Shown here one piece after another: positions 45,150 through 60,397 of a DNA stretch of 64,000 bases (position 1 is the stretch's first letter; every line of letters starts with the position of its first letter). A model generated the notes under the pieces. The model did no database searches and had not been told where the DNA came from. It was given only the letters and a program-made list of their open reading frames with translations. Origin of the DNA: Solibacillus sp. FSL R7-0668. GTDB lineage: Bacteria > Bacillota > Bacilli > Bacillales_A > Planococcaceae. Where the stretch lies: NCBI RefSeq assembly GCF_038006205.1, contig NZ_JBBOUU010000001.1, forward strand, positions 1,242,001 to 1,306,000, in the 5' to 3' direction. The position numbers were made by a program, and so were the translations under genes.

Positions 45150-45160
45150 GAGGAAAACAG

Positions 45161-46072: not shown

Positions 46073-46085
46073 ATAATAGGAAGAG

Positions 46086-46138
46086 ATACCTTTAGAGCAA
46101 ACGCATTTCTCATGTTTAGTTCCTAAAGGTATTTTTTT
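46086..46138 (+). terminator. Terminator after the ABC exporter operon
   Basis: ATACCTTTAG and CTAAAGGTAT arms with a 27-nt loop run into a T tract. Confidence 0.75.
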
Positions 46139-46150
46139 CTTTTTTAATGG

Positions 46151-46179
46151 TTGACAATATACCTGTGGGGGTATATTAT
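46151..46179 (+). promoter_or_regulatory. Promoter with CstR-type operator before the CoA-disulfide reductase gene
   Basis: TTGACA (46151-46156) and TATTAT (46174-46179) are 17 bp apart. The spacer holds ATACCTGTGGGGGTAT (46159-46174), the first copy of the palindrome repeated at 47980, 48320 and 50617. Confidence 0.85.
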
Positions 46180-46235
46180 AAAACTTGTAAATAGTAAAAA
46201 ATAAAAAAGTGGTCATGTCAGAGAGGGGTATTTAA

Positions 46236-47927
46236 ATGAAGAAAATTGTAATCGTTGGTGGCGTTGCAGGTGGTGCATCTGCAGCAGCACGAATTCGTCG
46301 TTTAGATGAAGAAGCACAAATTGTAATGTTTGAAAAAGGTCCCCATGTATCGTTTTCAAACTGTTCTTTACCATTTTACTTAAGCGGTGTTGTAGCAGAT
46401 TCAAAAAAATTAGTCATGATGAACCCAAACTCATTTGAAGCAAAATATAATATTGATGCACGTGTAAATAGTGAAGTCGTTGCGATTAACCGTGAGCAAA
46501 AACTAGTAACTGTTAAAAATGGTGTAACTGGCGAAAGCTATGAAGAAGCATATGATGTATTAATTTTATCACCAGGTGCAAGTCCGATTGTACCGAAGCT
46601 TGAAGGTGTGGACCTACCGCATGTATTTACAGTACGTAATGTAGTGGATATTGAAAAGCTACATAATGCGATTGTTGAAAAAGATGCAAAAAGTATTGCG
46701 GTAATCGGTGGTGGCTTTATCGGTGTAGAAGTGGCAGAAAATTTACGTCTAGCTGGTCGTAATGTGTCATTAGTCGAATTCGCACCACAAATTTTAACAC
46801 CATTTGATGAAGACATGGTGCAAATTTTGCATAAGGAAATGACGGATCATGGTGTTGATTTAGTCGTTGGAGATGGCTTAGCAGCGATCAATGAACAGGC
46901 GATTACGTTAAATTCAGGGAAAGTCATTGAAGCAGATATCGTTGTATTAGCGATTGGTGTACGTCCTGAAACGTCTTTAGCAGTCAATGCAAATCTTGAA
47001 ATTGGTGAAACAGGTGCGATTGCCGTTAACCAAAATTATCAAACGAACGATCCGAATATTTATGCGGTAGGTGATGCGATTGAAGTGTACCACCGCCTAA
47101 TGAACAAAAAAACACGCCTTGCATTAGCAGGTCCAGCACAAAAACAAGCACGCGCCATTGCGGACCATATTTATGGTATACCAAATCAGAACCGTGGTGT
47201 CATTGGTTCATCAAGTATTCAAGTGTTTGATCTAGCGGCTGCTTCAACAGGCTTAAACGAGCGTACGGCGAAGCAATTAGGGATTCCGACAGATGCCGTA
47301 TATGTCATTGCACCGGATAAAGTGGGCTTAATGCCATCAAGTAATCCATTGCATTTTAAATTAATTTATGAAATGCCTACGGGTCGTATTTTAGGTGCAC
47401 AAGCAATTGGTAAAGGAAATGCGGACAAACGAATTGATGTCATCGCTACATTGATTTCGATGAATGGTACGGTAGAGGACTTAAAGGATTTAGAATTAAC
47501 GTATTCACCTATGTTCTCAACAGCTAAGGACGTTGCGAATATGGCAGCTCTAGTCGCATCGAACCTTATGGCGGGTCGCTTCAAGCAAGTACGTGTTGAC
47601 GAAGTACGCGGCTTAGTCGAATCTGGCGCGGTAATTATTGACGTGCGCGAGCCAAATGAATTTGCAAATGGTGCATTAAAAGGTGCAATCAATATTCCAT
47701 TAGGCGAAATCCGTACACGCATGAACGAAATTCCTAAAGATGTACCGGTATACGTACATTGCCGTTCGTCTCAGCGTAGCTATAATGCTGTAATGGCATT
47801 AGAAAACAGTGGTTATGACAATGTGTATAATATTTCGGGTTCTTATTTAGGGATTAACTTATATGAGTATTTCAATGACCAACAACAAGGTCGCGAGCCA
47901 ATTGTGACGGAGTATAATTTTAAATAG
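46236..47927 (+). CDS. CoA-disulfide reductase with C-terminal rhodanese domain
   Basis: A 563-residue FAD/NAD(P) oxidoreductase of the CoADR-RHD (polysulfide or CoA-persulfide reductase) type. FAD-binding VGGVAGGASAA (8-18), single redox C43 in SFSNCSLPFYLSG, NAD(P)-binding VIGGGFIGVEVAENL (about 150), and a rhodanese domain (about 460-560) with active-site C509 in VHCRSSQR. Homologues reduce CoA-persulfides, polysulfides or CoA disulfide and are found in sulfur-detox loci. It has its own CstR-type promoter and a terminator, so it is separately transcribed from cstR. Confidence 0.9.
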   Translation: MKKIVIVGGVAGGASAAARIRRLDEEAQIVMFEKGPHVSFSNCSLPFYLSGVVADSKKLVMMNPNSFEAKYNIDARVNSEVVAINREQKLVTVKNGVTGESYEEAYDVLILSPGASPIVPKLEGVDLPHVFTVRNVVDIEKLHNAIVEKDAKSIAVIGGGFIGVEVAENLRLAGRNVSLVEFAPQILTPFDEDMVQILHKEMTDHGVDLVVGDGLAAINEQAITLNSGKVIEADIVVLAIGVRPETSLAVNANLEIGETGAIAVNQNYQTNDPNIYAVGDAIEVYHRLMNKKTRLALAGPAQKQARAIADHIYGIPNQNRGVIGSSSIQVFDLAAASTGLNERTAKQLGIPTDAVYVIAPDKVGLMPSSNPLHFKLIYEMPTGRILGAQAIGKGNADKRIDVIATLISMNGTVEDLKDLELTYSPMFSTAKDVANMAALVASNLMAGRFKQVRVDEVRGLVESGAVIIDVREPNEFANGALKGAINIPLGEIRTRMNEIPKDVPVYVHCRSSQRSYNAVMALENSGYDNVYNISGSYLGINLYEYFNDQQQGREPIVTEYNFK

Positions 47928-47928
47928 A

Positions 47929-47971
47929 ATTTTGGCGGGAGAAATTAATTTTTCTCCCACAAAATTTTTTA
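47929..47971 (+). terminator. Terminator after the CoA-disulfide reductase gene
   Basis: GGGAGAAA pairs with TTTCTCCC, with AATTTTG/CAAAATT outside, followed by six Ts. Confidence 0.8.
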
Positions 47972-47972
47972 G

Positions 47973-48001
47973 TTGACATATACCTCTAGGGGTATTAATA
48001 T
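47973..48001 (+). promoter_or_regulatory. cstR promoter with embedded operator
   Basis: TTGACA (47973-47978) and TAATAT (47996-48001) are 17 bp apart; the spacer contains ATACCTCTAGGGGTAT. The arrangement is the same as at 46151, indicating autorepression. Confidence 0.87.
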
Positions 48002-48034
48002 AAGAGTAAGCAAAACGAAAAAAGAGGTGAGCTT

Positions 48035-48295
48035 ATGCAATACGATGCAAAGGTAACAGCACGTATGAAACGAATTGAAGGTCAGCTTCGTGGCGTACTT
48101 CGCATGATGGAAGAAGAAAAGGATTGCAAAGAAGTCATCACACAGCTCAGCGCAATTCGTTCTGCAGTCGACCGAACAATCGGAGTAATTGTTTCAGACA
48201 ATTTAGTGGAATGTTTATCTAAAGAAGATGAAAAAGAATTAGATAAAAACGAATTGGTCAAACAAGCAGTAGAATTATTAGTAAAAAGTCGATAA
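48035..48295 (+). CDS. cstR: Persulfide-sensing repressor CstR (CsoR family)
   Basis: An 86-residue all-helical CsoR-family repressor. The two sensing cysteines are C31 and C60, exactly the positions described for staphylococcal CstR, which forms inter-subunit di-/tri-sulfide links with persulfides. The His that binds copper in true CsoR is replaced (N56), arguing against a Cu sensor. RMKRIEGQLRGVLRMMEE is the family start. It sits among persulfide genes and is preceded by its own operator. Confidence 0.92.
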   Translation: MQYDAKVTARMKRIEGQLRGVLRMMEEEKDCKEVITQLSAIRSAVDRTIGVIVSDNLVECLSKEDEKELDKNELVKQAVELLVKSR

Positions 48296-48319
48296 GGCTT
48301 TTTATTTTTCAAAAATAAT

Positions 48320-48335
48320 ATACCTATAGGGGTAA
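48320..48335 (+). promoter_or_regulatory. CstR-type operator overlapping the dsrE ribosome binding site
   Basis: ATACCTATAGGGGTAA is the third palindrome copy. Its right half runs into GGTAAGGAG, the ribosome binding site of the gene at 48345. No clear -35/-10 surrounds it, so it may block passing polymerase or a weak local promoter. Confidence 0.75.
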
Positions 48336-48344
48336 GGAGATAGT

Positions 48345-48821
48345 ATGGAAAAGAAAAGAACAACCATCGTTTTATTTAGTGGAGATTATGACAAGGCAAT
48401 GGCAGCATATATTATTGCCAATGGTGCAGCAGCGTACGATCATGAGGTAACAATCTTCCATACGTTCTGGGGTATTAACGCATTACGAAAACAAGAGCCT
48501 GTTCAAGTGAAAAAAGGTTTCCTAGAAAAAATGTTTGCCAAAATGATGCCACAAGGTGCTGAAAAGCTAGGTCTTTCAAAAATGCAAATGCTTGGTATGG
48601 GGCCAAAAATGATCAAGCATGTCGTTAATAAGCACAACGCACTAACATTAACGCAACTGATTGATATGGCACAGGAGCAAGATATTAAACTTGTTACTTG
48701 TACGATGACAATGGATTTACTAGGACTTCAAGAAGAAGAGTTACTTGACGGGATTCAATATGCAGGAGTCGCAGCTTATTTAGCAGACGCTGAAGAAGGA
48801 ACGGTCAACTTATTCATATAA
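48345..48821 (+). CDS. DsrE-family sulfur carrier protein (long form)
   Basis: A 158-residue DsrE/DsrF-like (DsrE2 group) protein. FSGDYDKAMAAYIIANGAAA and a conserved cysteine C119 in LVTCTMTMDLLG match the family; a lysine/methionine-rich insert (55-90) sets it apart from the shorter copy at 50128. Members accept and pass sulfane sulfur. It starts the run dsrE-rhodanese behind a CstR operator. Confidence 0.85.
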   Translation: MEKKRTTIVLFSGDYDKAMAAYIIANGAAAYDHEVTIFHTFWGINALRKQEPVQVKKGFLEKMFAKMMPQGAEKLGLSKMQMLGMGPKMIKHVVNKHNALTLTQLIDMAQEQDIKLVTCTMTMDLLGLQEEELLDGIQYAGVAAYLADAEEGTVNLFI

Positions 48822-48831
48822 GAGGTGCGAA

Positions 48832-49173
48832 ATGGAAACAATTATTATCATTGCAGTTATTGTGGCGTTTTTCGCTTGGCGTATGAAGCCAGCGAAAGGT
48901 ATTCAAACGATAACGACAGCAAAAGCAAAAGAAATTATTAATGATAAAGATAAAGTGTTTATCGATGTTCGAACACCAGCAGAATATAAGGCACGCAATG
49001 TCAAACAGTTTAAAAATATGCCACTTGGTACAGATTATTCGAAGCTACCTAAGGATAAAGAAATTGTTGTCATTTGTCAGAGCGGCATGCGTTCAATGCA
49101 AGCGTGCAAGCAATTAAAAAAATTAGGCTATGAAAAAGTAACGAATATTCGTGGCGGTATGAGTGCATATTAA
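48832..49173 (+). CDS. Membrane-anchored single-domain rhodanese
   Basis: 113 residues: an N-terminal membrane helix (about 2-16, IIIIAVIVAFFAW), then a rhodanese domain (25-113) with active-site C82 in VICQSGMRSM. It transfers sulfane sulfur at the inner membrane face. It follows the dsrE gene by 10 nt. Confidence 0.88.
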   Translation: METIIIIAVIVAFFAWRMKPAKGIQTITTAKAKEIINDKDKVFIDVRTPAEYKARNVKQFKNMPLGTDYSKLPKDKEIVVICQSGMRSMQACKQLKKLGYEKVTNIRGGMSAY

Positions 49174-49247
49174 TTTATCATTCGGTCGCGTCTGTTATAA
49201 GCGCAATGAATGTTCATAAACGAATGATTCCTTAGGAGGAACAAAAA

Positions 49248-49544
49248 GTGAAAACAATTTTACCAGAAGAAGTGCAAGCAAAATTACAAGCAGGCGAAGC
49301 GTTAAATTTAATCGACGTTCGCGAAGTGGATGAAGTAGCTGCGGGTCATATTCCGGGCATTACAAATATTCCACTTGGCTTATTAGAATTTAAAATGAAT
49401 GAGCTCGATAAAAAGAAAGCATATATTATGGTTTGCCGATCAGGTGGTCGCAGTGGCCAAGCAACAGCATTTTTAGAGTCACAAGGCTATGATGTAACAA
49501 ATATGACTGGCGGTATGCTGGATTGGACTGGCGACGTCGAGTAA
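49248..49544 (+). CDS. Single-domain rhodanese
   Basis: 98 residues, almost entirely rhodanese domain, with active-site C63 in MVCRSGGRSGQA and the CH2 motifs LIDVRE and HIPGITNIPLG. GTG 49248 follows TAGGAGGA. A soluble sulfurtransferase or carrier for the persulfide island. Confidence 0.9.
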   Translation: MKTILPEEVQAKLQAGEALNLIDVREVDEVAAGHIPGITNIPLGLLEFKMNELDKKKAYIMVCRSGGRSGQATAFLESQGYDVTNMTGGMLDWTGDVE

Positions 49545-49565
49545 TAAAAAAGACGGAGGTTTCAC

Positions 49566-50126
49566 ATGATTAAAGCAGACGTAAAATTAGACGCAAAAGG
49601 CTTAGCATGTCCAATGCCAATCGTGAAAACGAAAAAAGCGATTCAAGGCTTAGAGGACGGGCAAGTTTTAGAAGTAGTAGCAACAGACAAAGGCTCAAAA
49701 GCAGATTTAGCGGCTTGGGCGAAAACAGTTGGTCACCAATATATCGGGACAACTGAAGAGGGCGATGTACTATACCACTACATCCGCAAATGTAATCCAG
49801 AGGTAAGCGATGCTGTCGAGAAAACATTTGAACAAACAGCAACAAACGAAGAAGCAGTCGCAGCTAACGGCTTAATTTTAGACGTACGTGAAGCAGCAGA
49901 ATACGCATTCGGTCATATTCCAGGCGCAAAATCGATTCCAATGGGTGAATTGGCAGAGCGTATTGGTGAGTTAAACAAAGATGAAGCAATTTATGTCATT
50001 TGCCGTACAGGCACACGCTCCGATTTAGCGGCTCAGCAATTAGCACAAGCAGGATTTACAAAAGTATATAACGTCTTACCAGGTATGACTGGCTATGAAG
50101 GCGAATTAGAGAAAGAGGTACAATAA
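49566..50126 (+). CDS. TusA-rhodanese fusion protein
   Basis: A 186-residue fusion: a TusA/SirA domain (1-76) with the sulfur-carrying C15 in KGLACPMPIV, a short linker, then a rhodanese domain (about 98-185) with active-site C146 in VICRTGTRS. The fusion puts a sulfur donor and a carrier on one chain. It ends 1 nt before the next dsrE start, so they are tightly coupled. Confidence 0.92.
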   Translation: MIKADVKLDAKGLACPMPIVKTKKAIQGLEDGQVLEVVATDKGSKADLAAWAKTVGHQYIGTTEEGDVLYHYIRKCNPEVSDAVEKTFEQTATNEEAVAANGLILDVREAAEYAFGHIPGAKSIPMGELAERIGELNKDEAIYVICRTGTRSDLAAQQLAQAGFTKVYNVLPGMTGYEGELEKEVQ

Positions 50127-50127
50127 T

Positions 50128-50523
50128 ATGTCAAACAAAGTAGCAATTATCGCATCAAACGGTGGTCTTTTCGACGCGTATAAAGTATTCAATATCGCAA
50201 CAGCAGCAGCGGCTTCAGATAAAGAAGTAGAAATTTTCTTCACATTTGAAGGCTTAAACTTAATTCATAAAGAAGGCATGCACGCTTTAGCAATGCCAGC
50301 AGGAAAAGAACATTTCGCAGAAGGCTTTAAAAACGCACAAGTTCCAGCGATTCCACAATTAGTGGAAATGGCACAAGAATTAGGCGTGAAATTCATCGCT
50401 TGCCAAATGACGATGGACGTAATGGGCTTAACAAAAGAAAACTTTGTGGATGGCATCGACGTAGGTGGGGCTGTAACATTCTTAGAATTCGCAAAAGACG
50501 CAGCACCAACACTTACATTCTAA
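50128..50523 (+). CDS. DsrE-family sulfur carrier protein (short form)
   Basis: 131 residues with IIASNGGLFDAYKVFNIATAA and the conserved C92 in FIACQMTMDVMG. It is a paralogue of the 48345 product and lacks its insert. DsrE2 proteins pair with TusA and rhodanese in sulfane-sulfur relays. It follows the TusA-rhodanese gene directly. Confidence 0.88.
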   Translation: MSNKVAIIASNGGLFDAYKVFNIATAAAASDKEVEIFFTFEGLNLIHKEGMHALAMPAGKEHFAEGFKNAQVPAIPQLVEMAQELGVKFIACQMTMDVMGLTKENFVDGIDVGGAVTFLEFAKDAAPTLTF

Positions 50524-50568
50524 TAACGGGCATTTGCTCTTCAACTATTCCACAATTTGATTGAATCG

Positions 50569-50597
50569 GTACTAGGTAGCTCTGTCTACCTAGACCA
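50569..50597. repeat. Hairpin between dsrE and the persulfide dioxygenase gene
   Basis: GGTACTAGGTAG and CTACCTAGACC arms around CTCTGT form a near-perfect stem. It is followed on the plus strand by As, so it would terminate only minus-strand transcripts; role unclear. Confidence 0.45.
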
Positions 50598-50616
50598 AAA
50601 AAATTTACACTAAATT

Positions 50617-50632
50617 ATACCTATGGGGGTAC
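50617..50632 (+). promoter_or_regulatory. CstR-type operator before the persulfide dioxygenase gene
   Basis: ATACCTATGGGGGTAC is the fourth palindrome copy. It ends 6 nt before ATG 50639 and contains the GGGGG that would serve as ribosome binding site. Confidence 0.75.
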
Positions 50633-50638
50633 TAAAAA

Positions 50639-51766
50639 ATGACAGTAACAGCATGGACAGCGGCACAAGTAGCACGCAAAGTAATCGACAATAAAGAATT
50701 ATTCATTTTAGATGTTCGTAATGCAGATGCATTTGAAGATTGGAAAATCGACGGTCATAAGTTCGAGTATTTAAATATTCCATACTTCGAGTTACTTGAT
50801 GGCGTAGAAGAAATTTTACCACAAATTCCAACAGACAAAGAAGTACTTGTCGTATGTGCAAAAGAAGGCTCATCGATCATGGTAGCGGAAATGTTATCTG
50901 AAGCAGGTCGTGAAGTTGGCTACTTACAAGGTGGTATGAAATCTTGGTCAATGTACCTAGAGCCCATTAAAGTAGGCGACCTTGCAAACGGCGGCGAGCT
51001 CTACCAATTCGTACGCTTAGGGAAAGGCTGTCTTTCTTACATGGCAATTTCTGAAGGCGAAGCAGCAATCATCGACGCAGTACGCTTCACAGAAGTCTTC
51101 ACGAAGTTCGCTGAAGAAAAAGGCGTAAAAATTAAGCATGTCTTTGACACACACTTACACGCAGACCATATTTCTGGTGGTCGTCAGATTGCAGCTGCAA
51201 CAGGGGCAACATACTACTTACCACCAAAAGATGCAGAAGAAGTAGTATTCGACTATGCACCACTTGAAGATGGTTTAACAGTACAGCTTGGTTCATCTAA
51301 GATTGAAGTAGGCGCACTTTATTCACCAGGTCACACAATCGGTTCCACTTCATTCGTGATCGATGGCAAGTATTTATTAACAGGTGACATTTTATTCATC
51401 GATTCAATCGGTCGTCCAGATTTAGCTGGCTTAGCAGAGGATTGGGTAGGCGATTTACGCGAAACATTATATTCTCGCTACCGTACGTTAGCAGAAGATT
51501 TAATCGTATTACCGGCACACTTCATGATCATTGAAGAATTAAATGAAGACGGAACTGTAGCCAAACGTTTAGGTGATTTATTCGCTGAAAACCACGGCTT
51601 AAATGTGGAAGATGAGGAAGTATTCCGTTCAATGGTAACAGACAACTTACCGCCACAACCAAACGCATACCAAGAAATCCGTCACGTAAACATGGGTAAA
51701 ATTACTCCAGATAACGATGAGCAAACGGAGATGGAGATTGGCCCAAATCGTTGCGCAGTGCGCTAA
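50639..51766 (+). CDS. Rhodanese-persulfide dioxygenase fusion
   Basis: A 375-residue two-domain enzyme. N-terminal rhodanese (1-110) with C73 in VVCAKEGSS, then an ETHE1-type metallo-beta-lactamase fold (about 115-375). The iron-site residues of that family are present: H172, H174, D176 and H177 in [12 protein letters not shown]232 in SPGHTIGS, D250 in LTGDILF and H294 in LPAHF. Persulfide dioxygenases oxidise low-molecular-weight persulfides to sulfite with O2. Staphylococcal CstB is the functional parallel but has the dioxygenase first; here the order is reversed. Driven by its own CstR-type site. Confidence 0.9.
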
Positions 51767-51993
51767 CGATTCGGCCCAACTAAGAGGAACAAAAGCAAAG
51801 AACGCCACATCGTGTGGCAATGCTTTTGTGACATGCATCGTGCATGCCTCAAACCGTTGCGCAATACGCTAATTAAGTAAAATTGAAATGCTACACATAC
51901 GCTTGCCTCACGCTCAAGAGGCAAGCAACCGTCTTGTACGGAAAATTAGAAAATCGCTTACAAAATAAAACGTTAAGAATAGAGGAAATGAAC
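51767..51993 (+). repeat. Hairpin tract with duplicated 3' end of the dioxygenase gene
   Basis: Three hairpins follow one another: ACAAAAGCA/TGCTTTTGT with GCCACA/TGTGGC inside (51790-51829), CATGCA-TCG-TGCATG (51832-51846), and GCTTGCCTC/GAGGCAAGC (51901-51926). Between them 51850-51872 repeats the last 23 nt of the dioxygenase gene (51744-51766) at 20 of 23 positions, including a stop codon. It looks like debris of a local duplication or a small repeat element. Confidence 0.6.
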
Positions 51994-52221
51994 ATGAATA
52001 TTACACAAACTTTAGATGCAAAAGGGATCGCATGCCCAATGCCAATCGTACGTACAAAAAAGGCAATTGATACAATTAACACAGGTGAAGTATTAGAAGT
52101 TTTAGTAACAGACAAAGGCGCTTTAAATGACTTCCCAGCATGGTCAAAAGCAAGCGGTCACACGATTTTAGAAACAAAAGAAGTAGATGGCGTACACTAC
52201 TTCTACATTCAAAAAGCATAA
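51994..52221 (+). CDS. TusA-family sulfur carrier protein
   Basis: A 75-residue TusA/SirA-like protein with the conserved C14 in KGIACPMPIVRTKKAI. It resembles the TusA half of the 49566 fusion. ATG 51994 is 6-7 nt after AGAGGAA; a longer frame from 51883 crosses the hairpin tract and is rejected. It delivers sulfane sulfur to acceptors such as DsrE or biosynthetic enzymes. Confidence 0.9.
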   Translation: MNITQTLDAKGIACPMPIVRTKKAIDTINTGEVLEVLVTDKGALNDFPAWSKASGHTILETKEVDGVHYFYIQKA

Positions 52222-52232
52222 CAGTGTTTAGG

Positions 52233-52260
52233 GCGAGTAGAGCATTGTTCTACTCGCTTT
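52233..52260 (+). terminator. Hairpin after tusA
   Basis: GCGAGTAGA and TCTACTCGC form a 9-bp stem with 7-nt loop, followed by only three Ts, so termination may be partial. Confidence 0.55.
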
Positions 52261-52298
52261 AATATTCTAAAAGAAGAAAAAGAAAGAAGGAAAAAGCA

Positions 52299-53084
52299 AT
52301 GGAAATCGATTTATCCATCACATATATTACCGTCATTTTCGCCATTGGTTTTATTGGTTCATTTATATCAGGGATGCTCGGGGTCGGGGGCTCGATTATT
52401 AAATACCCGATGTTACTGTATATTCCACCGCTATTTGGTTTAGTGGCTTTTAGTGCACACGAAGTATCCGGTATTAGTGCTGTGCAAGTATTTTTCGCAT
52501 CAATTGCCGGAGTTTGGGCATACCGTAAAAGCGGTTTATTAAACAAAGATTTAATTATTTACATGGGGACATCGATATTAATTGGTAGCTTTATTGGTAG
52601 TTACGGATCTGGATTTTTATCAGAGGATGCAGTGAATGTCGTCTACGGGATACTCGCAGCCATTGCAGCCGTGATGATGTTTATTCCACGTAAAACGGTT
52701 GAAGATGCAAATGTGATTACCTTTAATAAAGTATTAGCAAGTTCATTAGCATTAATCGTCGGGATTGGATCTGGTATTGTCGGAGCAGCAGGAGGCTTTT
52801 TACTTGTACCGATTATGTTAACAGTCTTAAAAGTCCCAACACGCGTGACGATTGCAACGAGTTTAGCCATTACCTTTATTTCGTCCATTGGTGGTAGTAT
52901 CGGGAAGTTAGTGACAGGTCAAGTGGAATACTGGCCAGCCTTCTTAATGATTATTGCGAGCGTCATCGCGGCTCCACTTGGCGCTAAAGCTGGACAAAAA
53001 ATGAACATCAAAATTTTACAAGCTTTACTTGCTATTCTGATTGGTGCAACGGCTATTAAAATTTGGGTTGATATCCTGCTATAA
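52299..53084 (+). CDS. TauE/SafE-family exporter
   Basis: A 261-residue membrane protein with seven or eight spans in two related halves: [20 protein letters not shown] and [18 protein letters not shown]. The family exports sulfite and small sulfonates. Next to a persulfide dioxygenase, which makes sulfite, a sulfite exporter is the natural role (inference). Confidence 0.9.
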
Positions 53085-53090
53085 TAAATT

Positions 53091-53153
53091 GTGAAGTAAT
53101 TTTCACTTTATTGATATGAATTTGCCACGTGAACTTCAAATTAATTTCACAAA
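53091..53153 (+). promoter_or_regulatory. Possible anaerobic regulator sites before the nos-type operon
   Basis: GTGAAGTAATTTTCAC (53091-53106) is an 8-base-spaced GTGA/TCAC dyad, and TTTCACAAA (53145-53153) is the reverse of TTTGTGAAA, eight of nine to the ResD half-site TTTGTGAAT. Fnr normally needs a 6-nt gap, so the first is not a clean Fnr box. Assignment is tentative. Confidence 0.3.
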
Positions 53154-53203
53154 TCATTGATAGTATTAACTTGGAGAAGATAAGAAAAACTGGAGGCAAA
53201 ATA

Positions 53204-53866
53204 ATGAAAAAAATGATCTTAGTTGTACCATTAATTTTAGGTTTATATGCATGTGGGGATGCAGCAGAAGAAAATCCACCAGAAAAAGAAAATGTAACGC
53301 AACAAGCTGAGACAGAAGAAAATGAAGTCGTAGCAGGTGCAGAAAAGACAGAGTGGGAAATTGATGAACGCTTACAAGAACCTACAGAGGATACGACATG
53401 CTATATGTGTAATATGAAGGTGTATATGCGTGATCATGAACAAGGTGTATTCTCGGCACAAGCGATTCGTGAAGATGGGGAGCTTGTTTTCTATGACGAC
53501 ATTGGCTGCTTATTAAACGATGAATATGTTAATAATGTATCGAATGAGAAATTTGTCCGTGATTATAAAACGTTAAACTGGTTTGATGTGGAAGAGGCTC
53601 ATGTTGTGAAAACCGACTTAAAATCACCGATGAACTGGGGCTATATTTTCTTTAAAAATGAAGAACAAGCAAATGACTATATTGCGCAAAATGATGGTGC
53701 TGCATTAACGGAGCTACAACAGGTGCGTGAAGAGGCAATTGAGCGATTCAAGAAAAAGCAAGAGGCAAATAAAGATGGCGGCCATATGGAAATGGAAGGT
53801 CACGGACAGGATGACGGTCATAATCACGACGATGAAGGTCATTCAATGGACGATTCAAAAGAGTAG
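53204..53866 (+). CDS. nosL: NosL-family lipoprotein with His-rich tail
   Basis: 220 residues: a lipoprotein signal (lipobox LYAC, C17), an acidic linker (20-62), a NosL domain (about 63-180) with the putative Cu motif C66-x-x-C69-N-M71 (CYMCNM), and a histidine/aspartate/methionine-rich tail (about 195-220, for example GHGQDDGHNHDDEGH). NosL brings Cu(I) to NosDFY/NosZ. ATG 53204 is 7 nt after TGGAGG; an upstream frame is rejected. It begins an operon with nosD 3 nt downstream. Confidence 0.82.
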   Translation: MKKMILVVPLILGLYACGDAAEENPPEKENVTQQAETEENEVVAGAEKTEWEIDERLQEPTEDTTCYMCNMKVYMRDHEQGVFSAQAIREDGELVFYDDIGCLLNDEYVNNVSNEKFVRDYKTLNWFDVEEAHVVKTDLKSPMNWGYIFFKNEEQANDYIAQNDGAALTELQQVREEAIERFKKKQEANKDGGHMEMEGHGQDDGHNHDDEGHSMDDSKE

Positions 53867-53869
53867 CCT

Positions 53870-55198
53870 ATGTGGAAAAACATCGTAATTTCAATCGTGC
53901 TTTTAGTAAGCTTGACTAGTGGCGCATCATTAGGGGTCGCAGCGACTCATGATCATCACGCACCAGTAGAATTTAAGAAGCCCATTATTAACACAGGCGA
54001 AAAAAGTACCTTACAGAAATTAATTGATGCCACAAAACCAGGTGACACGCTTCTTTTAGAGGGGCGTGTTTATCGTGGTTCGGTATCCATTACAAAACCT
54101 ATTAAAATTCAGGGCGTAGAAGGGACAGAAATTCATTCTTTATCAAATGCGCTCACAATCACGGATAGTGAAAATATTACGTTAGAAAACCTTGTATTTA
54201 ATGTAGAGGAAAATGCGATTGTTGCAAACAATATAACGAATCTTACTTTGAGTAATATACAGTTTCTGAATTCAAATGCAGGGCTACTAATTACGGATAG
54301 TCAACAGATTAAGCTGCACAACCTGACAATTGAGGGTCGAGAAGGGCATTTTAAAACGAAAAATCATGGTGTCGCTATTTATAATTCACAGGACGTTACC
54401 GCAACGCAAAGTACGATATCGAATGTATTAGATGGCTTTTATTTTGAGCGTGTTAAGGGCATTGAGCTGCACGAAAATACGATTACAAATAGTCGCTATG
54501 CAACGCATTTTATGTATAGTGACAATATGAATATAACAGGTAATGAGCTTACTCATAATATGACGGGCTTTATGATTATGATTGCGAAAAACTTAATGCT
54601 GTCAGACAATCGCATTGCAAAAAATAACACATTAAATAGCTTAGGTGTATATTTTTATGATGTTGAAAATGTAGTATTTCAAAAGAACAAACTAAGTGAA
54701 AATACCATTTCGATGGATATACAAAATACAAAAAAAGTAATTGCCCAACATAATGAATTCCAAACGAACGGAACGGTGTTGCAGGTTAAACATTCACCAG
54801 ATTTTGCTGTGACGGACAATCAATTTTATGGCAATATTTTAACGGTTCGTTCGGACAAAGAGCGATTGCAGCTTGCAAATAATTTTTATGATGATTATAG
54901 CGGACATGATTATGACGGGGATGGTATTGGAGATACACCTTACATCGCGACCAATTCGTTTGGGCAATGGATGGTGAAAAAGCCGGTGTACCAATATTTT
55001 ATCGAATCACCGGGTGTTGTTGTGCTCAATATGATGGACACCGAAGTAACGGGGGACCATCAGCTCGTTGTGACAGACGAAACGCCACATAGTCAGAAGC
55101 AGCCATATAAATGGAAATGGGATATTGATATGATCCAGCTCATGATGAGTACCATTGTATTAGCTGGAATGCTTGTAATAAGGAGAAAATTGATATGA
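53870..55198 (+). CDS. nosD: NosD, periplasmic-type beta-helix copper assembly protein
   Basis: 442 residues: signal peptide (about 1-25), a right-handed parallel beta-helix of CASH/NosD repeats (about 60-330), the conserved DYDGDGIGDTPY segment, and a C-terminal membrane anchor (about 420-440). With NosF and NosY it forms the NosDFY ABC machine that matures the Cu-S centre of N2O reductase. Stop overlaps the start of the next nosL by 4 nt. Confidence 0.88.
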   Translation: MWKNIVISIVLLVSLTSGASLGVAATHDHHAPVEFKKPIINTGEKSTLQKLIDATKPGDTLLLEGRVYRGSVSITKPIKIQGVEGTEIHSLSNALTITDSENITLENLVFNVEENAIVANNITNLTLSNIQFLNSNAGLLITDSQQIKLHNLTIEGREGHFKTKNHGVAIYNSQDVTATQSTISNVLDGFYFERVKGIELHENTITNSRYATHFMYSDNMNITGNELTHNMTGFMIMIAKNLMLSDNRIAKNNTLNSLGVYFYDVENVVFQKNKLSENTISMDIQNTKKVIAQHNEFQTNGTVLQVKHSPDFAVTDNQFYGNILTVRSDKERLQLANNFYDDYSGHDYDGDGIGDTPYIATNSFGQWMVKKPVYQYFIESPGVVVLNMMDTEVTGDHQLVVTDETPHSQKQPYKWKWDIDMIQLMMSTIVLAGMLVIRRKLI

Positions 55199-55650
55199 AA
55201 CTTCACCAAATATTAATTGTAGCAGTGAGTATTATTTTTTTAGCAGCATGTAGCGAACAAACGTATGAACCACGTGAGGTAAACCAAGAAACAGATGTGT
55301 GCCAAATTTGCAATATGAGTATTACCCATGTTGATTATGCGGCACAAACCGTATTGAAAAATGGCGACCAAATCGTATTTGATGATTTAGGCTGCTTAAT
55401 AGACTATATTTTACAAAATGGTGAGGACGATATTGGAGCGAGCTATATTCGTGCAGAAAATTCGTCGGAATGGCTAAATATCAAGGAAGCTGTGTATGTA
55501 TACTCAAAGGATTATTGGACACCAATGAATTATGGCGTGCTTGCGTTTAGTGCACAGACTGAAGCTGAAAACTATATGAATGAGGAGCCCGGCAAGCTAT
55601 TGCAATATGAGGATTTATTGACGCTAAACTGGGGTGTACATGAACACTGA
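55195..55650 (+). CDS. nosL: NosL-family lipoprotein, second copy
   Basis: 151 residues: lipobox LAAC (C19) and a NosL domain with C36-x-x-C39-N-M41 (CQICNM), the same motif as the first copy but without the acidic linker and His-rich tail. The second copy overlaps both neighbours by 1-4 nt, tying it to NosD and NosY. Confidence 0.85.
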   Translation: MKLHQILIVAVSIIFLAACSEQTYEPREVNQETDVCQICNMSITHVDYAAQTVLKNGDQIVFDDLGCLIDYILQNGEDDIGASYIRAENSSEWLNIKEAVYVYSKDYWTPMNYGVLAFSAQTEAENYMNEEPGKLLQYEDLLTLNWGVHEH

Positions 55651-56462
55651 TGAATGCCCAAATGATTGTACTTGAATGTAAACAGCTTTTACGTAGCCGC
55701 TGGATTCAAATTGTTACGCTTCTTTTTGCGATTGTATTTAGCGCCATTTTAATGATTCAACATTTAGCGCTGCCAAGCACGACTAGCTTCACACGCCAGA
55801 CAGCATCTTTACTTAATATTTTATTATTTTTATTGCCGTTATTTATGCTAACCATTGGTAGTATGAATATTGCAAGTGATAAAGAGACGGGATGGCTTGG
55901 GCTATTATCGACGTATCCATTATCAATGGGTCGTTTTGTACTGACGAAGTATATTGCACTTTGCCTCGTATTTACGGGCATTAGTGTATTTGTTTTTGCG
56001 GTTGCACTGTTTGCGGGGAGCTTTTTTGGTGGACTAAAGTTACCGTGGTTTGCGGTGATCATTACGATGCTTATTATATTGATTTTCAATGCAATCAGTG
56101 TACTGCTTGGGGCAATCGCCAAAACGCGTTTACACGCACTCGCGATTGGGCTTGGTGTATGGTCGGTTGTTAGTTTATTAATTTCGTATATGATGATGGC
56201 AATTGGTACCGTGTCGTCTGAGGCATTATTAAAACAGCTTGTCATCGTAATGATTCACCTCAATCCGTTAGAATGGATTCGCTATGGCTACTTTGTATTT
56301 TCAGAGCAAACGGCTGTACTTGGGCCAGCCTTTTACGGAATGTCGATGTTTTATTCTTCACCACCAGGCTTTGTTATTTTCGGTGTCGTTTCATTATTGT
56401 GGGTTGCATTGTCATTAATGATGGCCACATTATTATTGAAGGTGAGAGGAAAACGACTATGA
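55650..56462 (+). CDS. nosY: NosY, ABC-2 type permease
   Basis: A 270-residue ABC-2 permease with six spans (IVTLLFAIVFSAILMIQHLA, LLNILLFLLPLFMLTIGSM, and others). In denitrifiers it forms NosDFY with NosD outside and NosF inside. It overlaps nosL by 1 nt and nosF by 4 nt. Confidence 0.87.
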   Translation: MNAQMIVLECKQLLRSRWIQIVTLLFAIVFSAILMIQHLALPSTTSFTRQTASLLNILLFLLPLFMLTIGSMNIASDKETGWLGLLSTYPLSMGRFVLTKYIALCLVFTGISVFVFAVALFAGSFFGGLKLPWFAVIITMLIILIFNAISVLLGAIAKTRLHALAIGLGVWSVVSLLISYMMMAIGTVSSEALLKQLVIVMIHLNPLEWIRYGYFVFSEQTAVLGPAFYGMSMFYSSPPGFVIFGVVSLLWVALSLMMATLLLKVRGKRL

Positions 56463-57145
56463 CGATTGAATTACAGCATGTAACAAAGGTATTTAAAGGT
56501 GAGCGTGGGATATTTGATGTCAGCTTTTCATTGAAGCCAGGTCATATTACGGCACTTGTCGGCTCAAATGGTGCGGGAAAAAGTACCATTATTAACTTAT
56601 TAACGAATTTACTGCAGCCAGACGAAGGAACGATTACGCGTGCTGTTCATGATGTCCGCTATATGCCTGATGATATTAGTTTTCCGGATACATTGACCGC
56701 ACAAGAAATCATTAAGTTTTTAGCGGGTTTAAAAAATGTACCTGCTCAAAAACAAGCAGAGCTCTTACAGCAAGTTGGGCTAGACGATGCAAAAACAATG
56801 AAGGTGGGACAATTTTCAAAGGGAATGCGACAGCGCTTAAATTTAGCGCAAAGCTTAATGGGAGATAGCCCACTATTTATATTAGATGAGCCAACAAATG
56901 GGCTTGATCCCTATTGGATTGCGCAATTAAAGGCAATGCTCCAACAGCAGCGCGAAAATAATCAAATCGTATTATTTTCAACACATTTACTGAGCTTAGC
57001 TGAGGAAATTGCCGATGAGGTTGTATTAATCCATCATGGCAAAATTTTAGCAACAGGACCGATAGACATATTATTAGCCCACTATTCATGCCAATCGCTT
57101 GAGCAGCTTTGGCTCCAGCTGACAAAGCAAGGTGATCAGCATTGA
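56459..57145 (+). CDS. nosF: NosF, ABC ATPase
   Basis: A 228-residue ATPase: Walker A GSNGAGKST (about 38-46), signature FSKGMRQRLNLAQ, Walker B LFILDEPTNGLDP and switch histidine STHLLS. Start ATG 56459 overlaps the nosY stop (ATGA); a longer upstream frame is just the nosY gene in another frame. It powers the NosDFY complex. Confidence 0.88.
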   Translation: MTIELQHVTKVFKGERGIFDVSFSLKPGHITALVGSNGAGKSTIINLLTNLLQPDEGTITRAVHDVRYMPDDISFPDTLTAQEIIKFLAGLKNVPAQKQAELLQQVGLDDAKTMKVGQFSKGMRQRLNLAQSLMGDSPLFILDEPTNGLDPYWIAQLKAMLQQQRENNQIVLFSTHLLSLAEEIADEVVLIHHGKILATGPIDILLAHYSCQSLEQLWLQLTKQGDQH

Positions 57146-57657
57146 AGAAATGGGCAATAGGGTTCGGAATTGTATTCGTATTAGGATTTGTCGCATTTGA
57201 GTTAGTTTCAACGTTTCAGCAAGCGCAAAAGCGTGAAGTCATTCGTACGGTGCAGGCAACAGATTTTACGCTGCCTACATTAGATGACCAAAAGCAAACA
57301 TTGGCCCAAACCCGTGGGAAGGTTGTTATTTTGAATTTTTGGGCATCCTGGTGTGAGCCGTGTAAGTCAGAAATGCCACATTTTCAAACCTATTATGTAC
57401 AGCATAGCGAAGACCTTGAAATTTTGGCAATTAACTATACGAAAAAAGACCAAGTGGCTCAGGTGAAAAGCTTTGTGGAGCAATACAAACTAACATTTCC
57501 GATATTGTTAGATGAAACAGGGGAAACGAGCATTATGTATGGGGCCTTTACCTTACCGACGACGATTATTCTTGATCGTGAAGGTAATATTGTTCACGAA
57601 ATATTAGGTCCGTTAGATGAAGCCCTATTAGAAGAATATGTAGAGCCCCTCTATTAA
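57142..57657 (+). CDS. TlpA/ResA-like membrane-anchored thioredoxin
   Basis: 171 residues: an N-terminal anchor (about 4-20) and a thioredoxin fold with C71-E-P-C74 (FWASWCEPCKSEMP) and a cis-proline loop FTLPTTII. TlpA-type reductants keep copper-chaperone cysteines reduced, which fits the two CxxC NosL proteins upstream. TTG 57142 overlaps the nosF stop. It ends the operon. Confidence 0.88.
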   Translation: MKKWAIGFGIVFVLGFVAFELVSTFQQAQKREVIRTVQATDFTLPTLDDQKQTLAQTRGKVVILNFWASWCEPCKSEMPHFQTYYVQHSEDLEILAINYTKKDQVAQVKSFVEQYKLTFPILLDETGETSIMYGAFTLPTTIILDREGNIVHEILGPLDEALLEEYVEPLY

Positions 57658-57698
57658 AAACAAGCGCCACTTCAACCATTCGAAGTAGCGCTTGTTTT
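57657..57698. terminator. Bidirectional terminator after the nos-type operon
   Basis: AAAACAAGCGC-c-ACTTC pairs with GAAGT-a-GCGCTTGTTTT, with A/T runs on both sides, between converging tlpA and carD genes. Confidence 0.85.
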
Positions 57699-57710
57699 AC
57701 GTATATATGT

Positions 57711-58223
57711 TTAAGCATGTGTAGTGATAGTGGCTTGGATTTTTTCTTGAATTTGTTTTTCCAATTGAGCTTTTGTTTGATTTAATGCAAGCTCTAAAGT
57801 ATCGAACATCATCATGGAAATTTGCTGTAGCATTTGTGTATCTTGAGATGTTAGCTTCTTTTCTTGTTGTTGTAATTCTTGCTCTTTACGAAGCAATGTA
57901 TTCATCAGCTGTGCAATTTCTACATGATTATTCTTGCTTAAAATATCAGCATGATGGCGTTGGCGATTCGTATTGCGTTCGTCCCAATCACTTGCTTCAT
58001 TGGAGAATATGTCGAGTATTTTACTAGCTTCATCATAGCTAAGTAATTTTTCAAGCTGACAGTTATCGCTTTCTACCGGATGATATAATGTGACGCCTGG
58101 TCGCAATTTTGACTGTAAAACATAATACTGCATCGGTGTCCCGGTGAAGTTTTGTTCTACAATGCTATCGATTCGGCAAATACCGTGTGATTTATAAAAA
58201 GTAAGATCACCAATTTTGTACAT
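57711..58223 (-). CDS. CarD-family transcription regulator
   Basis: A 170-residue protein with an N-terminal CarD/TRCF RNA-polymerase interaction domain (MYKIGDLTFYKSHGICRIDSI, 1-60) and a helical C-terminal part (about 65-170). CarD proteins bind RNAP and alter open-complex stability; the Bacillus members are less well studied. ATG 58223 is used because GGAGGG lies just upstream, and a longer frame runs into the promoter at 58255-58283. Confidence 0.85.
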   Translation of the reverse strand: MYKIGDLTFYKSHGICRIDSIVEQNFTGTPMQYYVLQSKLRPGVTLYHPVESDNCQLEKLLSYDEASKILDIFSNEASDWDERNTNRQRHHADILSKNNHVEIAQLMNTLLRKEQELQQQEKKLTSQDTQMLQQISMMMFDTLELALNQTKAQLEKQIQEKIQATITTHA

Positions 58224-58254
58224 GTTTTTAGCCCTCCAATGTTTTGTTAATTCT

Positions 58255-58293
58255 ATTATAAATGAAAAAGAGTTTTGCGTCAACTAAGTTGAC
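58255..58293 (-). promoter_or_regulatory. carD promoter with a GTCAAC palindrome
   Basis: On the minus strand TTGACG (58283-58278) and TATAAT (58260-58255) are exactly 17 bp apart. The palindrome GTCAAC-TAA-GTTGAC (58279-58293) overlaps the -35. The adjacent MarR protein is a natural candidate to bind it. Confidence 0.75.
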
Positions 58294-58309
58294 TTTTGGT
58301 GTAATACAT

Positions 58310-58338
58310 TTGAAAAAATAAAAAGGGTTTAGTATGAT
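58310..58338 (+). promoter_or_regulatory. Promoter of the MarR gene
   Basis: TTGAAA (58310-58315) and TATGAT (58333-58338) are 17 bp apart on the plus strand, 40 nt before the MarR start. Confidence 0.65.
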
Positions 58339-58378
58339 GCTTGAGAAGTTAATGAACGGATGGTAAGGAGTGCATGTG

Positions 58379-58792
58379 ATGAATGATTTAATCGAATTAT
58401 TATATAGACAACATAAGCAGCTACGTCATGTGGCCGATACAATGTGGAACAGCCATTATGATTTACATTTAACGAGTTCGGAATGGTATGTTTTGAAGAG
58501 TATTTCGGATGGCAAAATGACTGTGCCAGAGCTTGTTGTACAGCTTGATATTACAAAGCAGGGGGTACACAAGTTTTTACAAGCACTGCAGGATAAGGGG
58601 CTTATTCAAACAGAGCTTGTAAAAGGAGCAAAGCTACAAAAAGTCGCTTCATTAACGGATAAAGGTCAAGAGGTAATGCAAAAAAGCTTGGCACTAGATT
58701 ACGAAATTTCAGAAAGAGTACGTGCCTCAATTGGTCAAGAGCAATACGAGCAGCTTATTTCGATATTAGGACAGCCTTTAATTTCTAAATAA
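58379..58792 (+). CDS. MarR-family regulator
   Basis: A 137-residue winged-helix repressor: LTSSEWYVLKSISDGKMTVPELVVQLDITKQGVHKFLQAL with a wing (KVASLTDKG). ATG 58379 is 8 nt after TAAGGAG. It is divergent from carD; the GTCAAC palindrome lies between. Ligand and targets unknown. Confidence 0.85.
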   Translation: MNDLIELLYRQHKQLRHVADTMWNSHYDLHLTSSEWYVLKSISDGKMTVPELVVQLDITKQGVHKFLQALQDKGLIQTELVKGAKLQKVASLTDKGQEVMQKSLALDYEISERVRASIGQEQYEQLISILGQPLISK

Positions 58793-58837
58793 TGTGATTC
58801 CTTCTGCTTGAATAGATTGTAATGAAAGAAAAAGCAT

Positions 58838-59536
58838 TTAAAGTGTTCCTTTATCAGAGAAAATAGTATCAATATGGAGCTGTTCCATTTGCTCGGCGAT
58901 TTCTTTTTTATTAACGGTGTATGCTCGCACAACGATGCCTTGCTGAATCGCCCGCTGAATGATCGAGCGCATACCGTAATAATACGGTATATGGATGGCG
59001 TCACAGTCGAAGTTTCGTACATAGTCATCTAGATTTGTAATGAGTGAAGCAAATAATAGGGCACAGTGAATCTGTGGCTGTATTTGCTGAAAACGGGCAA
59101 TCGTTTCGTGATTAAACGATGAGATTATGATTCGTTCCTTTTGTTGAAATGCTTCAAGAGCATTGGCAATAAGCAGTTCAATGCCGGGGTATTCGAAAAC
59201 ATCGGACTTAATTTCAATGTTAATTTGGTGTTTTGTATCTTTGAAAATAGCAAGTACCTCTGATAAGGTGCAAATTTTTTGACCAGCAAACTTTACGTCA
59301 AACCATGAACCAAAATCATAGGTTTTTAACTGCGCTAATGTTAGGTCTTTTACAAAGCCAGTACCATTAGATGTACGGTCAATCGATTCGTCGTGAATTA
59401 CGACTAACTGCTGATCCGATGTTAAGTGGACGTCAAATTCTACTCCCCAGCAATCAAGTTTTGCGGCTTGTTGAAAAGCAATCGCTGTATTTTCTGGAAA
59501 GCTAGCACTAAGTCCACGATGCGCTAATATTTTCAT
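58838..59536 (-). CDS. Glycerophosphodiester phosphodiesterase
   Basis: A 232-residue GlpQ/UgpQ-type enzyme that splits deacylated phospholipid headgroups to glycerol 3-phosphate and alcohol. Active-site features: H6-R7 (LAHRGLSASFPENT), E33-x-D35-x-H37 (VEFDVHL) and H48-D49 (VVIHDES). No signal peptide, so cytoplasmic. AGGAGGC is about 13 nt before ATG on the minus strand. It lies downstream of fabI behind a hairpin. Confidence 0.9.
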   Translation of the reverse strand: MKILAHRGLSASFPENTAIAFQQAAKLDCWGVEFDVHLTSDQQLVVIHDESIDRTSNGTGFVKDLTLAQLKTYDFGSWFDVKFAGQKICTLSEVLAIFKDTKHQINIEIKSDVFEYPGIELLIANALEAFQQKERIIISSFNHETIARFQQIQPQIHCALLFASLITNLDDYVRNFDCDAIHIPYYYGMRSIIQRAIQQGIVVRAYTVNKKEIAEQMEQLHIDTIFSDKGTL

Positions 59537-59591
59537 CGATAAAATATAAGCCTCCTCAAACTGTATTTTTCAATATTTTAGCAATATAAGA

Positions 59592-59623
59592 AGCGAATTC
59601 ACAAGGGAGGATGTGAATTCGCT
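59592..59623 (-). terminator. Hairpin after fabI
   Basis: AGCGAATTCACA and TGTGAATTCGCT form a perfect 12-bp stem with an 8-nt loop. The minus-strand tail TTCTTATATT is only partly T-rich, so termination may be leaky. Confidence 0.6.
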
Positions 59624-59629
59624 AAATAA

Positions 59630-60397
59630 CTACCCCATAATATGATAGCCGCTATCGATGTAAATTGTTTCGCCTGTCACACCGCGCGATAGATGACTTA
59701 ACATCACCATCGTCATATCAGCAACTTCTTCTTGATTGGTATTGCGCTTTAGTGGCGCATTTTCTTCGATTTTTTTCAAAATGTCATTGAAGCTAGGGAC
59801 ACCTTTTGCAGCCAATGTTCGAATTGCACCAGCTGAAATCGCATTGACACGAATATTTTCTGCGCCAACATCTGCAGCTAAATAACGCATTGACGCCTCC
59901 AGTGCAGCCTTCGCAACCCCCATTACATTGTAGCCAGGTAATACACGTTCCGCGCCTAAATAAGACATCGTCACGATGGAACCACCCTCTGTCATAAATG
60001 GCTTGGCAGCTTTTGTGACGGCAATTAGTGAATAGGCACTTGTATCTTGAGCAAAGGCATATCCATCGCGCGTTGTTTCTACGAAGCGATTGTGTAAGTC
60101 CTCCGCGTGAGCAAAGGCAACCGAGTGTACAATACCGTGAATGACACCAAATTTTTCTCCGATTTCTGTGAAAGCTTTGGCAATACTGTCATTATTATTA
60201 ACATCACATTCAACAATCGTTGCTTCTCGATCCGCTAAAAGCTTTTCGATTTTGCCCTTTGAGCGTTCCTTTCGATAAGTGAAAATAACATTTGCTCCTA
60301 CATCAAAAAGTCGTTTTGCTATGCCCCAAGCGATACTACGCTCATTGGCAACGCCCATCACGACAATATTTTTTCCTTCTAATTGTAGTAAATCCAT
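59630..60397 (-). CDS. fabI: Enoyl-ACP reductase FabI
   Basis: Reduces the trans-2-enoyl-ACP double bond in each cycle of fatty acid elongation; target of triclosan. A 255-residue SDR: NAD(P) loop VMGVANERSIAWGIA, catalytic Y146 and Y156 with K163 (SYLGAERVLPGYNVMGVAK), and the C-terminal GVTGETIYIDSGYHIMG. A FapR box lies upstream, so it belongs to the malonyl-CoA-controlled lipid regulon. Confidence 0.95.
   Translation of the reverse strand: MDLLQLEGKNIVVMGVANERSIAWGIAKRLFDVGANVIFTYRKERSKGKIEKLLADREATIVECDVNNNDSIAKAFTEIGEKFGVIHGIVHSVAFAHAEDLHNRFVETTRDGYAFAQDTSAYSLIAVTKAAKPFMTEGGSIVTMSYLGAERVLPGYNVMGVAKAALEASMRYLAADVGAENIRVNAISAGAIRTLAAKGVPSFNDILKKIEENAPLKRNTNQEEVADMTMVMLSHLSRGVTGETIYIDSGYHIMG

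Follow-up and report, generated by a model that had tools for sequence, protein, structure and literature searches.

A NosZ-independent NosDFY-NosL cassette of Planococcaceae, a predicted copper-trafficking module of an extracytoplasmic copper regulon

The NosDFYL proteins have been described as the machinery that matures N2O reductase (NosZ), which eliminates a greenhouse gas. Cu(I) is bound by NosL (PMC6530538), from which copper reaches NosD in its complex with NosFY and then NosZ (PMC13068155). NosZ-less NosDFY loci are already known in Bacillales: nosDYF clusters without an associated nosZ were reported in 2012 in Bacillus azotoformans, NirK being named as another candidate recipient (PMC3475470), and a NosZ-less NosL-NosDFY locus was reported in 2026 in Parageobacillus, with NirK or a beta-propeller peroxidase as the suggested client (PMC13068155). 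In Bacillus subtilis, YcnJ (CopC-CopD-YtkA), CtaK (YtkA) and Sco have been implicated in supplying Qox and Cta with copper, and cytochrome bd serves as a copper-independent alternative oxidase (PMC13344008). Here we analyze a six-gene cassette, nosL1-nosD-nosL2-nosY-nosF-tlpA, in a 64,000-nucleotide stretch of the Solibacillus sp. FSL R7-0668 genome (contig NZ_JBBOUU010000001.1, positions 1,242,001 to 1,306,000; hereafter the window). An initial annotation of this DNA regarded NosDFY and NosL as known only for building the Cu-S center of NosZ, a view superseded by the two Bacillales reports. On comparative genomic grounds, we are inclined to read the cassette as a NosZ-independent NosDFYL copper-trafficking module that belongs to an extracytoplasmic copper regulon.

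The cassette (53204-57657) consists of genes that overlap or almost abut, with a strong terminator at the 3' end. The features are as follows.

53135..53166, + strand: conserved promoter element TTCA-N7-TTCACA-N9-TANNNT, between tauE and nosL1 (predicted)
53204..53866, + strand: nosL1, copper lipoprotein of the NosL type with a CXXCXM motif and a tail rich in His and Asp (PF05573, 32.7 bits, gathering threshold 24; start by eye)
53870..55198, + strand: nosD, secreted beta-helix protein with a hydrophobic anchor at the C terminus and conserved HxM and M237 (PF05048/PF13229)
55195..55650, + strand: nosL2, second NosL-type lipoprotein (PF05573, 53.4 bits, gathering threshold 24)
55650..56462, + strand: nosY, ABC-2 type permease (PF12679)
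56459..57145, + strand: nosF, ABC ATPase starting within the end of nosY (PF00005, 99.8 bits; start by eye)
57142..57657, + strand: tlpA, tlpA/resA-like (AhpC/TSA) thioredoxin with an N-terminal hydrophobic stretch and CEPC (PF00578, 102.7 bits)
57657..57698, + strand: intrinsic terminator hairpin at the end of the operon (-22.1 kcal/mol on folding, z -7.9)

The gene order, the overlaps and the final terminator given in the initial annotation are borne out by the Pfam families and by the folded hairpin, which was found by folding and is not among the sites listed by a simple terminator scan. The starts of nosL1 (53204) and nosF (56459) are the likely ones from reading by eye, the longer open reading frame (ORF) calls appearing to be artefacts. 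With a beta-helix NosD, a permease, an ATPase and NosL proteins with a copper motif, the locus has the gene content of a NosDFY(L)-type ABC system. Both NosL proteins, as read from the translations, contain CXXCXM (CYMCNM and CQICNM), the form reported for clade II NosL (PMC6530538). The TlpA protein matches the ResA and StoA models, in both cases under the model cut-off.

No NosZ is encoded in the source genome (4.2 Mb, listed as 100% complete), in which two models, TIGR04244 and TIGR04246, gave 0 matches at E<=1e-3; in relatives TIGR04246 does detect NosZ, over the cut-off in 5 of 250 Planococcaceae genomes and in split form in a sixth. The absence of nosZ noted for the window thus holds for the complete genome, no NosZ was found elsewhere in it, and the machine encoded by the cassette accordingly has a different client. 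The locus has the NosD, NosF, NosY and NosL set of a nosZ maturation operon, lacks NosZ, and has a NosD that scores below the cut-off of TIGR04247 (220.5 bits vs 300) and does not group with NosZ-linked NosD. In NosD trees, a single branch parts all NosZ-less from all NosZ-linked rows, with support of 100/99 in the tree of 42 rows, falling to 95/92 when five further rows are added (47 rows); the trees are unrooted, so that we make no claim on which of the two kinds came first. A profile built from 15 NosZ-less NosD proteins retrieved a single distinct PDB sequence, NosD 7o0y, which we take to be that of Pseudomonas stutzeri (E 6.7e-33), with the HxM motif aligned. This motif and M237 are kept in both sets; a nearly invariant Met of the NosZ-less set (M235, 24/25) is replaced by Ala in the three NosZ-linked rows compared.

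The cassette is widespread in the family, which was sampled as one set of 250 Planococcaceae genomes, with associations not corrected for kinship. NosD matches (E<=1e-20) are present in 77 of these genomes, five of which have NosZ-linked NosD only, and the NosZ-less cassette is found in 72, at 73 loci; one of the 72, a metagenome bin with both NosD kinds (G183), also has NosZ (split). The carriers of NosD include Lysinibacillus sphaericus, L. fusiformis, Kurthia, Caryophanon, Viridibacillus, Psychrobacillus and Domibacillus; NosZ was also not found in Domibacillus mangrovi. The order nosL1-nosD-nosL2-nosY-nosF is retained in 66 of the 73 loci, 16 of the 73 contain a tlpA of the same cluster as that in the window, and several genera have the cassette flanked by a nadE-like and a moxR-like gene (names assigned by eye). 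Of the seven loci that depart from this order, one lies at a contig end, two have nosL1 in divergent orientation, one lacks nosL1 and has a nosD containing a stop, in one an additional ORF is called between nosY and nosF, and in two the permease belongs to another cluster. The interrupted NosD copy (L093, G177:C1:1113987-1115147) occurs in a genome that also holds a cassette without such a stop. In a phylum-wide sample, the source genome excluded, NosD-like matches (E<=1e-30) are present in 10 of 398 genomes, six with NosZ over the cut-off and four without NosZ at E<=1e-30 (G442, G624, G315 and G583).

The promoter element links the cassette to other operons. It is built of TTCA and TTCACA half-sites 11 bp apart, and its strict form has a single match in the window, that at 53135-53166 (0.00 expected from shuffles). 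Upstream regions were scanned at 71 of the 73 loci, leaving out one at a contig end (L057) and the one without nosL1 (L093) and using the region before nosD in two. In the 200 bp before nosL1, TTCACA is present at 68/71 cassettes (shuffle mean 7.8, maximum 16) and TTTCACA at 61/71 (shuffle mean 3.6), the reverse complements being not clearly enriched there; the half-sites recur at spacings of 22 and 10-12 bp. A relaxed version of the element precedes 59/71 cassettes vs 1/621 other genes (>=150 aa) of the same loci. An Fnr-type palindrome was considered and rejected: the most enriched gapped palindromes are confined to one genus, and the signal itself is a direct repeat found on one strand only. 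Repeats of this kind, helically spaced, fit a regulator of the OmpR/PhoB type.

In the source genome, the half-site pair has 20 matches (vs 5 for the control), one of them before a gene for a 321-aa lipoprotein (near G000:C1:3261088-3262041) that resembles YncE/surface-layer beta-propellers. Genes for a response regulator, a histidine kinase and a YtkA-like lipoprotein follow, and heme-synthesis-type genes lie upstream; in the two propeller operons that were read, a further lipoprotein, YtkA-like in the source genome, is encoded together with the propeller and the histidine kinase. TTCACA was found at 30/30 propeller loci, in four of them only past the called start, which we take to be mis-called. 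The propeller (E<1e-60, 105 genomes, seven weaker matches being kept separate) is present in 61 of the 72 cassette genomes vs 44 of the 178 others (odds ratio 17, without kinship correction). In G034, from the genus of Caryophanon tenue, the gene order is propeller-response regulator-histidine kinase-nosD, and in G030 and G082 a response regulator-histidine kinase-SCO run is divergent to the cassette. The regulator of the source-genome propeller operon is 45-52% identical (over ~166 residues) to the regulators adjoining the cassette in these three genomes.

The strict pattern was then counted in 88 whole genomes, all picked for a propeller match (a weak one in G058), giving 148 matches vs 35 for the reversed pattern. 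Of these, 86 are at the propeller operon (one per genome), the cassette accounts for 7, copC for at least 7, and 48 lie elsewhere; among 24 of the last group that were read (20 picked by eye for a good-looking element and 4 others) there were 3 further copC sites and 7 PepSY-TM operons, the rest preceding single or unrelated genes. The matches left after the propeller, cassette, copC and PepSY groups are about as many as in the control. Pfam assigned CopC, CopD, PepSY and YtkA in some of the strict-site operons; a ccdA-like gene (by eye) behind one site had no Pfam match at E<=1e-10. In 4 of the 7 PepSY-TM operons a second lipoprotein gene follows, and the one such sequence tested is a YtkA protein. 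The strict element is shared with copC in at least ten genomes and with PepSY operons in seven, as expected of a copper regulon, and PepSY-type genes adjoin the cassette at four loci (L064, L075, L077, L080).

Related strict elements also occur in four genomes of the genus of the window (L224, own C1:2262686; G114:C1:1690521; G120:C40:142380; G144:C1:1870912), and the three sites read have no downstream gene in common. At L219 (own genome C1:1416292), a 280-aa lipoprotein without a Pfam match is encoded ~200 bp 3' of a half-site pair. At L288 (G015:C1:1505000-1518000), NosL-like genes (one Pfam-supported) and a TlpA-like gene lie beside copCD, with two transposase-like genes between the NosL-like pieces.

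Given the homology to the NosZ system, we assume the same copper steps from NosL to NosD/NosFY, minus NosZ. The two surface NosL lipoproteins would bind Cu(I) and pass it to membrane-anchored NosD, ATP use by NosFY would let NosD unload its copper onto an extracytoplasmic client, whose cysteines, or those of chaperones, might be kept reduced by the TlpA-like thioredoxin. The cassette would be controlled by an OmpR-type response regulator, most likely that of the propeller operon, acting with its histidine kinase, in a regulon that in other genomes would extend to the copC and PepSY operons and that probably answers copper shortage. Members of the YtkA, CopC, CopD and SCO families (SCO in G030, G082 and G102) flank the cassette or have its element. 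In addition, G315, G008 and G241 have cydABCD, for an oxidase without copper, next to the cassette, and cydCD/A lie near it in G126/G108. Cytochrome bd genes beside or near NosZ-less cassettes were recorded at L052, L053, L082, L083 and L325, in several lineages. By analogy with B. subtilis, these neighbors led us to propose delivery to heme-copper terminal oxidases in copper shortage, with the CuA site of caa3 oxidase as the most likely acceptor, an assignment that we put forward tentatively. We suggest, with still more reserve, that NosDFYL could be a general energy-driven copper-delivery machine that in Planococcaceae loads heme-copper oxidases under copper limitation and two-component control, with the secreted propeller as sensing partner, and of which the NosZ-linked version would be a specialised sister.

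Several observations weigh against parts of this interpretation. The strict element is present at only 11/71 cassettes, and outside the family it was not seen at 4 of the 6 cassettes examined (G643, G624, G315, G583). Only 6 of the at least 10 genomes with a copC site, and 2 of the 7 with a PepSY site, carry the cassette. CopC itself is rarer in cassette genomes (30/72 vs 129/178 others); given this negative association, CopC was rejected as an obligate partner, though the element is found at copC in some genomes. A CuA motif scan of 1356 neighborhood proteins recovered NosZ only, and thus no oxidase subunit is encoded beside the cassette; the same scan gave no cupredoxin neighbor as a candidate client.

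Among the other explanations, control by ResD in response to low oxygen or redox state, without any dedicated copper signal, seems rather unlikely to us. The ResD box is TTTGTGAAT, and the half-site resembles it; cydABCD adjoins cassettes, and in the source genome half-site pairs without the full spacing precede a Rieske/qcrA-type gene and a hemA-type gene (the latter by eye), a finding with which a ResD-like oxygen/redox regulator would be compatible. However, the strict matches in the 88 genomes center on the propeller operon, the cassette, copC and PepSY are the other recurrent groups, and the rest is near chance. That the propeller lipoprotein is itself the copper-loaded client, or a copper-binding partner of the sensor, is favored by the strict element at its operon in 86/88 genomes, by its proximity to nosD in G034 and by the two invariant His and two invariant Met residues among 31 sequences, but 44 genomes have the propeller without the cassette, and in the PDB it matches propellers of the surface-layer and YncE types and designed ones rather than NosZ, so that we consider this option quite improbable. 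Nor do we think it likely that the client is another cuproenzyme, such as NirK, as suggested for B. azotoformans and Parageobacillus (PMC3475470, PMC13068155), or a multicopper oxidase. Weak NirK-model matches of multicopper-oxidase size do occur in genomes with and without the cassette, including one in the source genome (535 aa frame, E 3e-11), but strong ones (E<1e-50) were found in 10/250 genomes, none of them among the 72 with the cassette, and no genome passes the model cut-off; NirK was accordingly rejected as a general client.

The initial annotation envisaged a Cu and/or sulfane-sulfur delivery machine for a different client, or a NosZ encoded elsewhere. A different client agrees with the absence of NosZ, and copper delivery fits the data, whereas the link to sulfur was not supported. 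The TusA, rhodanese and DsrE neighbors are real: Pfam identifies DsrE twice, rhodanese, TusA-rhodanese, rhodanese-Lactamase_B, TusA and TauE upstream of the cassette. Since no terminator was listed by the scan in the interval from tauE to nosL1, transcripts of the sulfur operon may run on into the cassette; in G082, a gene assigned as rhodanese-like by eye and by cluster lies 3' of the cassette, and an older view has NosDFY as a sulfide supplier (PMC6530538). When gene neighborhoods were compared across relatives (flanks of ~6 to 9 kb per locus, fewer at contig ends), however, TusA and persulfide-dioxygenase genes were found near only 4 of the 73 NosZ-less loci, those of the window, G144, G126 and G108 (the last three being L051, L052 and L053), all in the genus of the window. 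The sulfur-gene adjacency is thus a local arrangement of one genus; moreover, the cassette has its own promoter element, common to copper-type operons elsewhere, and in the newer account NosDFY relays copper from NosL (PMC13068155). A sulfane-sulfur or Cu-S machine tied to the persulfide island is, in our judgment, decidedly unlikely. An Rfam scan of 44000-60000 yielded nothing beyond one Bacillaceae-1 RNA, at 51780-51846 between the persulfide dioxygenase gene and tusA. Finally, the cassette could be what is left of an N2O reductase operon after loss of nosZ, given that NosZ is missing in the source genome and present in 6/250 family genomes (one split), but this we regard as very improbable indeed. 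The gene order is kept across many genera, the supported branch sets the cassette NosD apart, and both NosD sets occur in G183 and, outside the family, in G643, where one NosD adjoins NosZ and the second is encoded elsewhere. Furthermore, five of the six family NosZ operons are arranged differently, as nosZ-(nosB-like)-nosD-nosY-nosF-YtkA-like-nosL (nosB by eye), the sixth, also different from the cassette, having no YtkA-like gene call, and TTCACA is absent within 400 bp before nosZ in all six. The NosZ-less cassette does not look like a leftover.

In KEGG, nosD is annotated beside nosZ (PMC11388526). Given the size of the NosZ-less family, nosD or nosL alone should not be taken to signal N2O reduction in these bacteria. 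The cassette offers a way to learn the role of an ATP-driven copper-delivery complex without a CuZ site, and the proposed regulon provides specific targets for work in Lysinibacillus and Solibacillus: a regulator, a promoter and a group of copper genes.

Within the literature searched, the new findings are the wide occurrence of the cassette in Planococcaceae, its distinct NosD lineage, the promoter element with its regulon and the exclusion of NirK as a general client; no published account of the regulon was found among open-access articles. With the NosDFY-NosL system of N2O reductase in Pseudomonas stutzeri and Paracoccus denitrificans, the cassette shares the protein families, the NosD match to 7o0y and CXM-type NosL, but it differs in lacking NosZ, in having two NosL proteins and TlpA, in its separate NosD lineage and in its promoter. 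The loci of Parageobacillus thermoglucosidasius (PMC13068155) and B. azotoformans (PMC3475470), likened here by description, are similar in being NosDFY clusters without NosZ for which another copper recipient was proposed; unlike the cassette genomes, which have no strong NirK match and in which a regulon was found, B. azotoformans carries nosZ in three further clusters, and a NirK-type enzyme is present in P. thermoglucosidasius. The B. subtilis YcnJ/CtaK/Sco system (PMC13344008) involves the same CopC, CopD, YtkA and SCO families that lie beside the cassette or in its regulon, whereas the accessible part of that article mentions neither NosD nor a two-component system (0 occurrences of either term) and names YcnK as the regulator.

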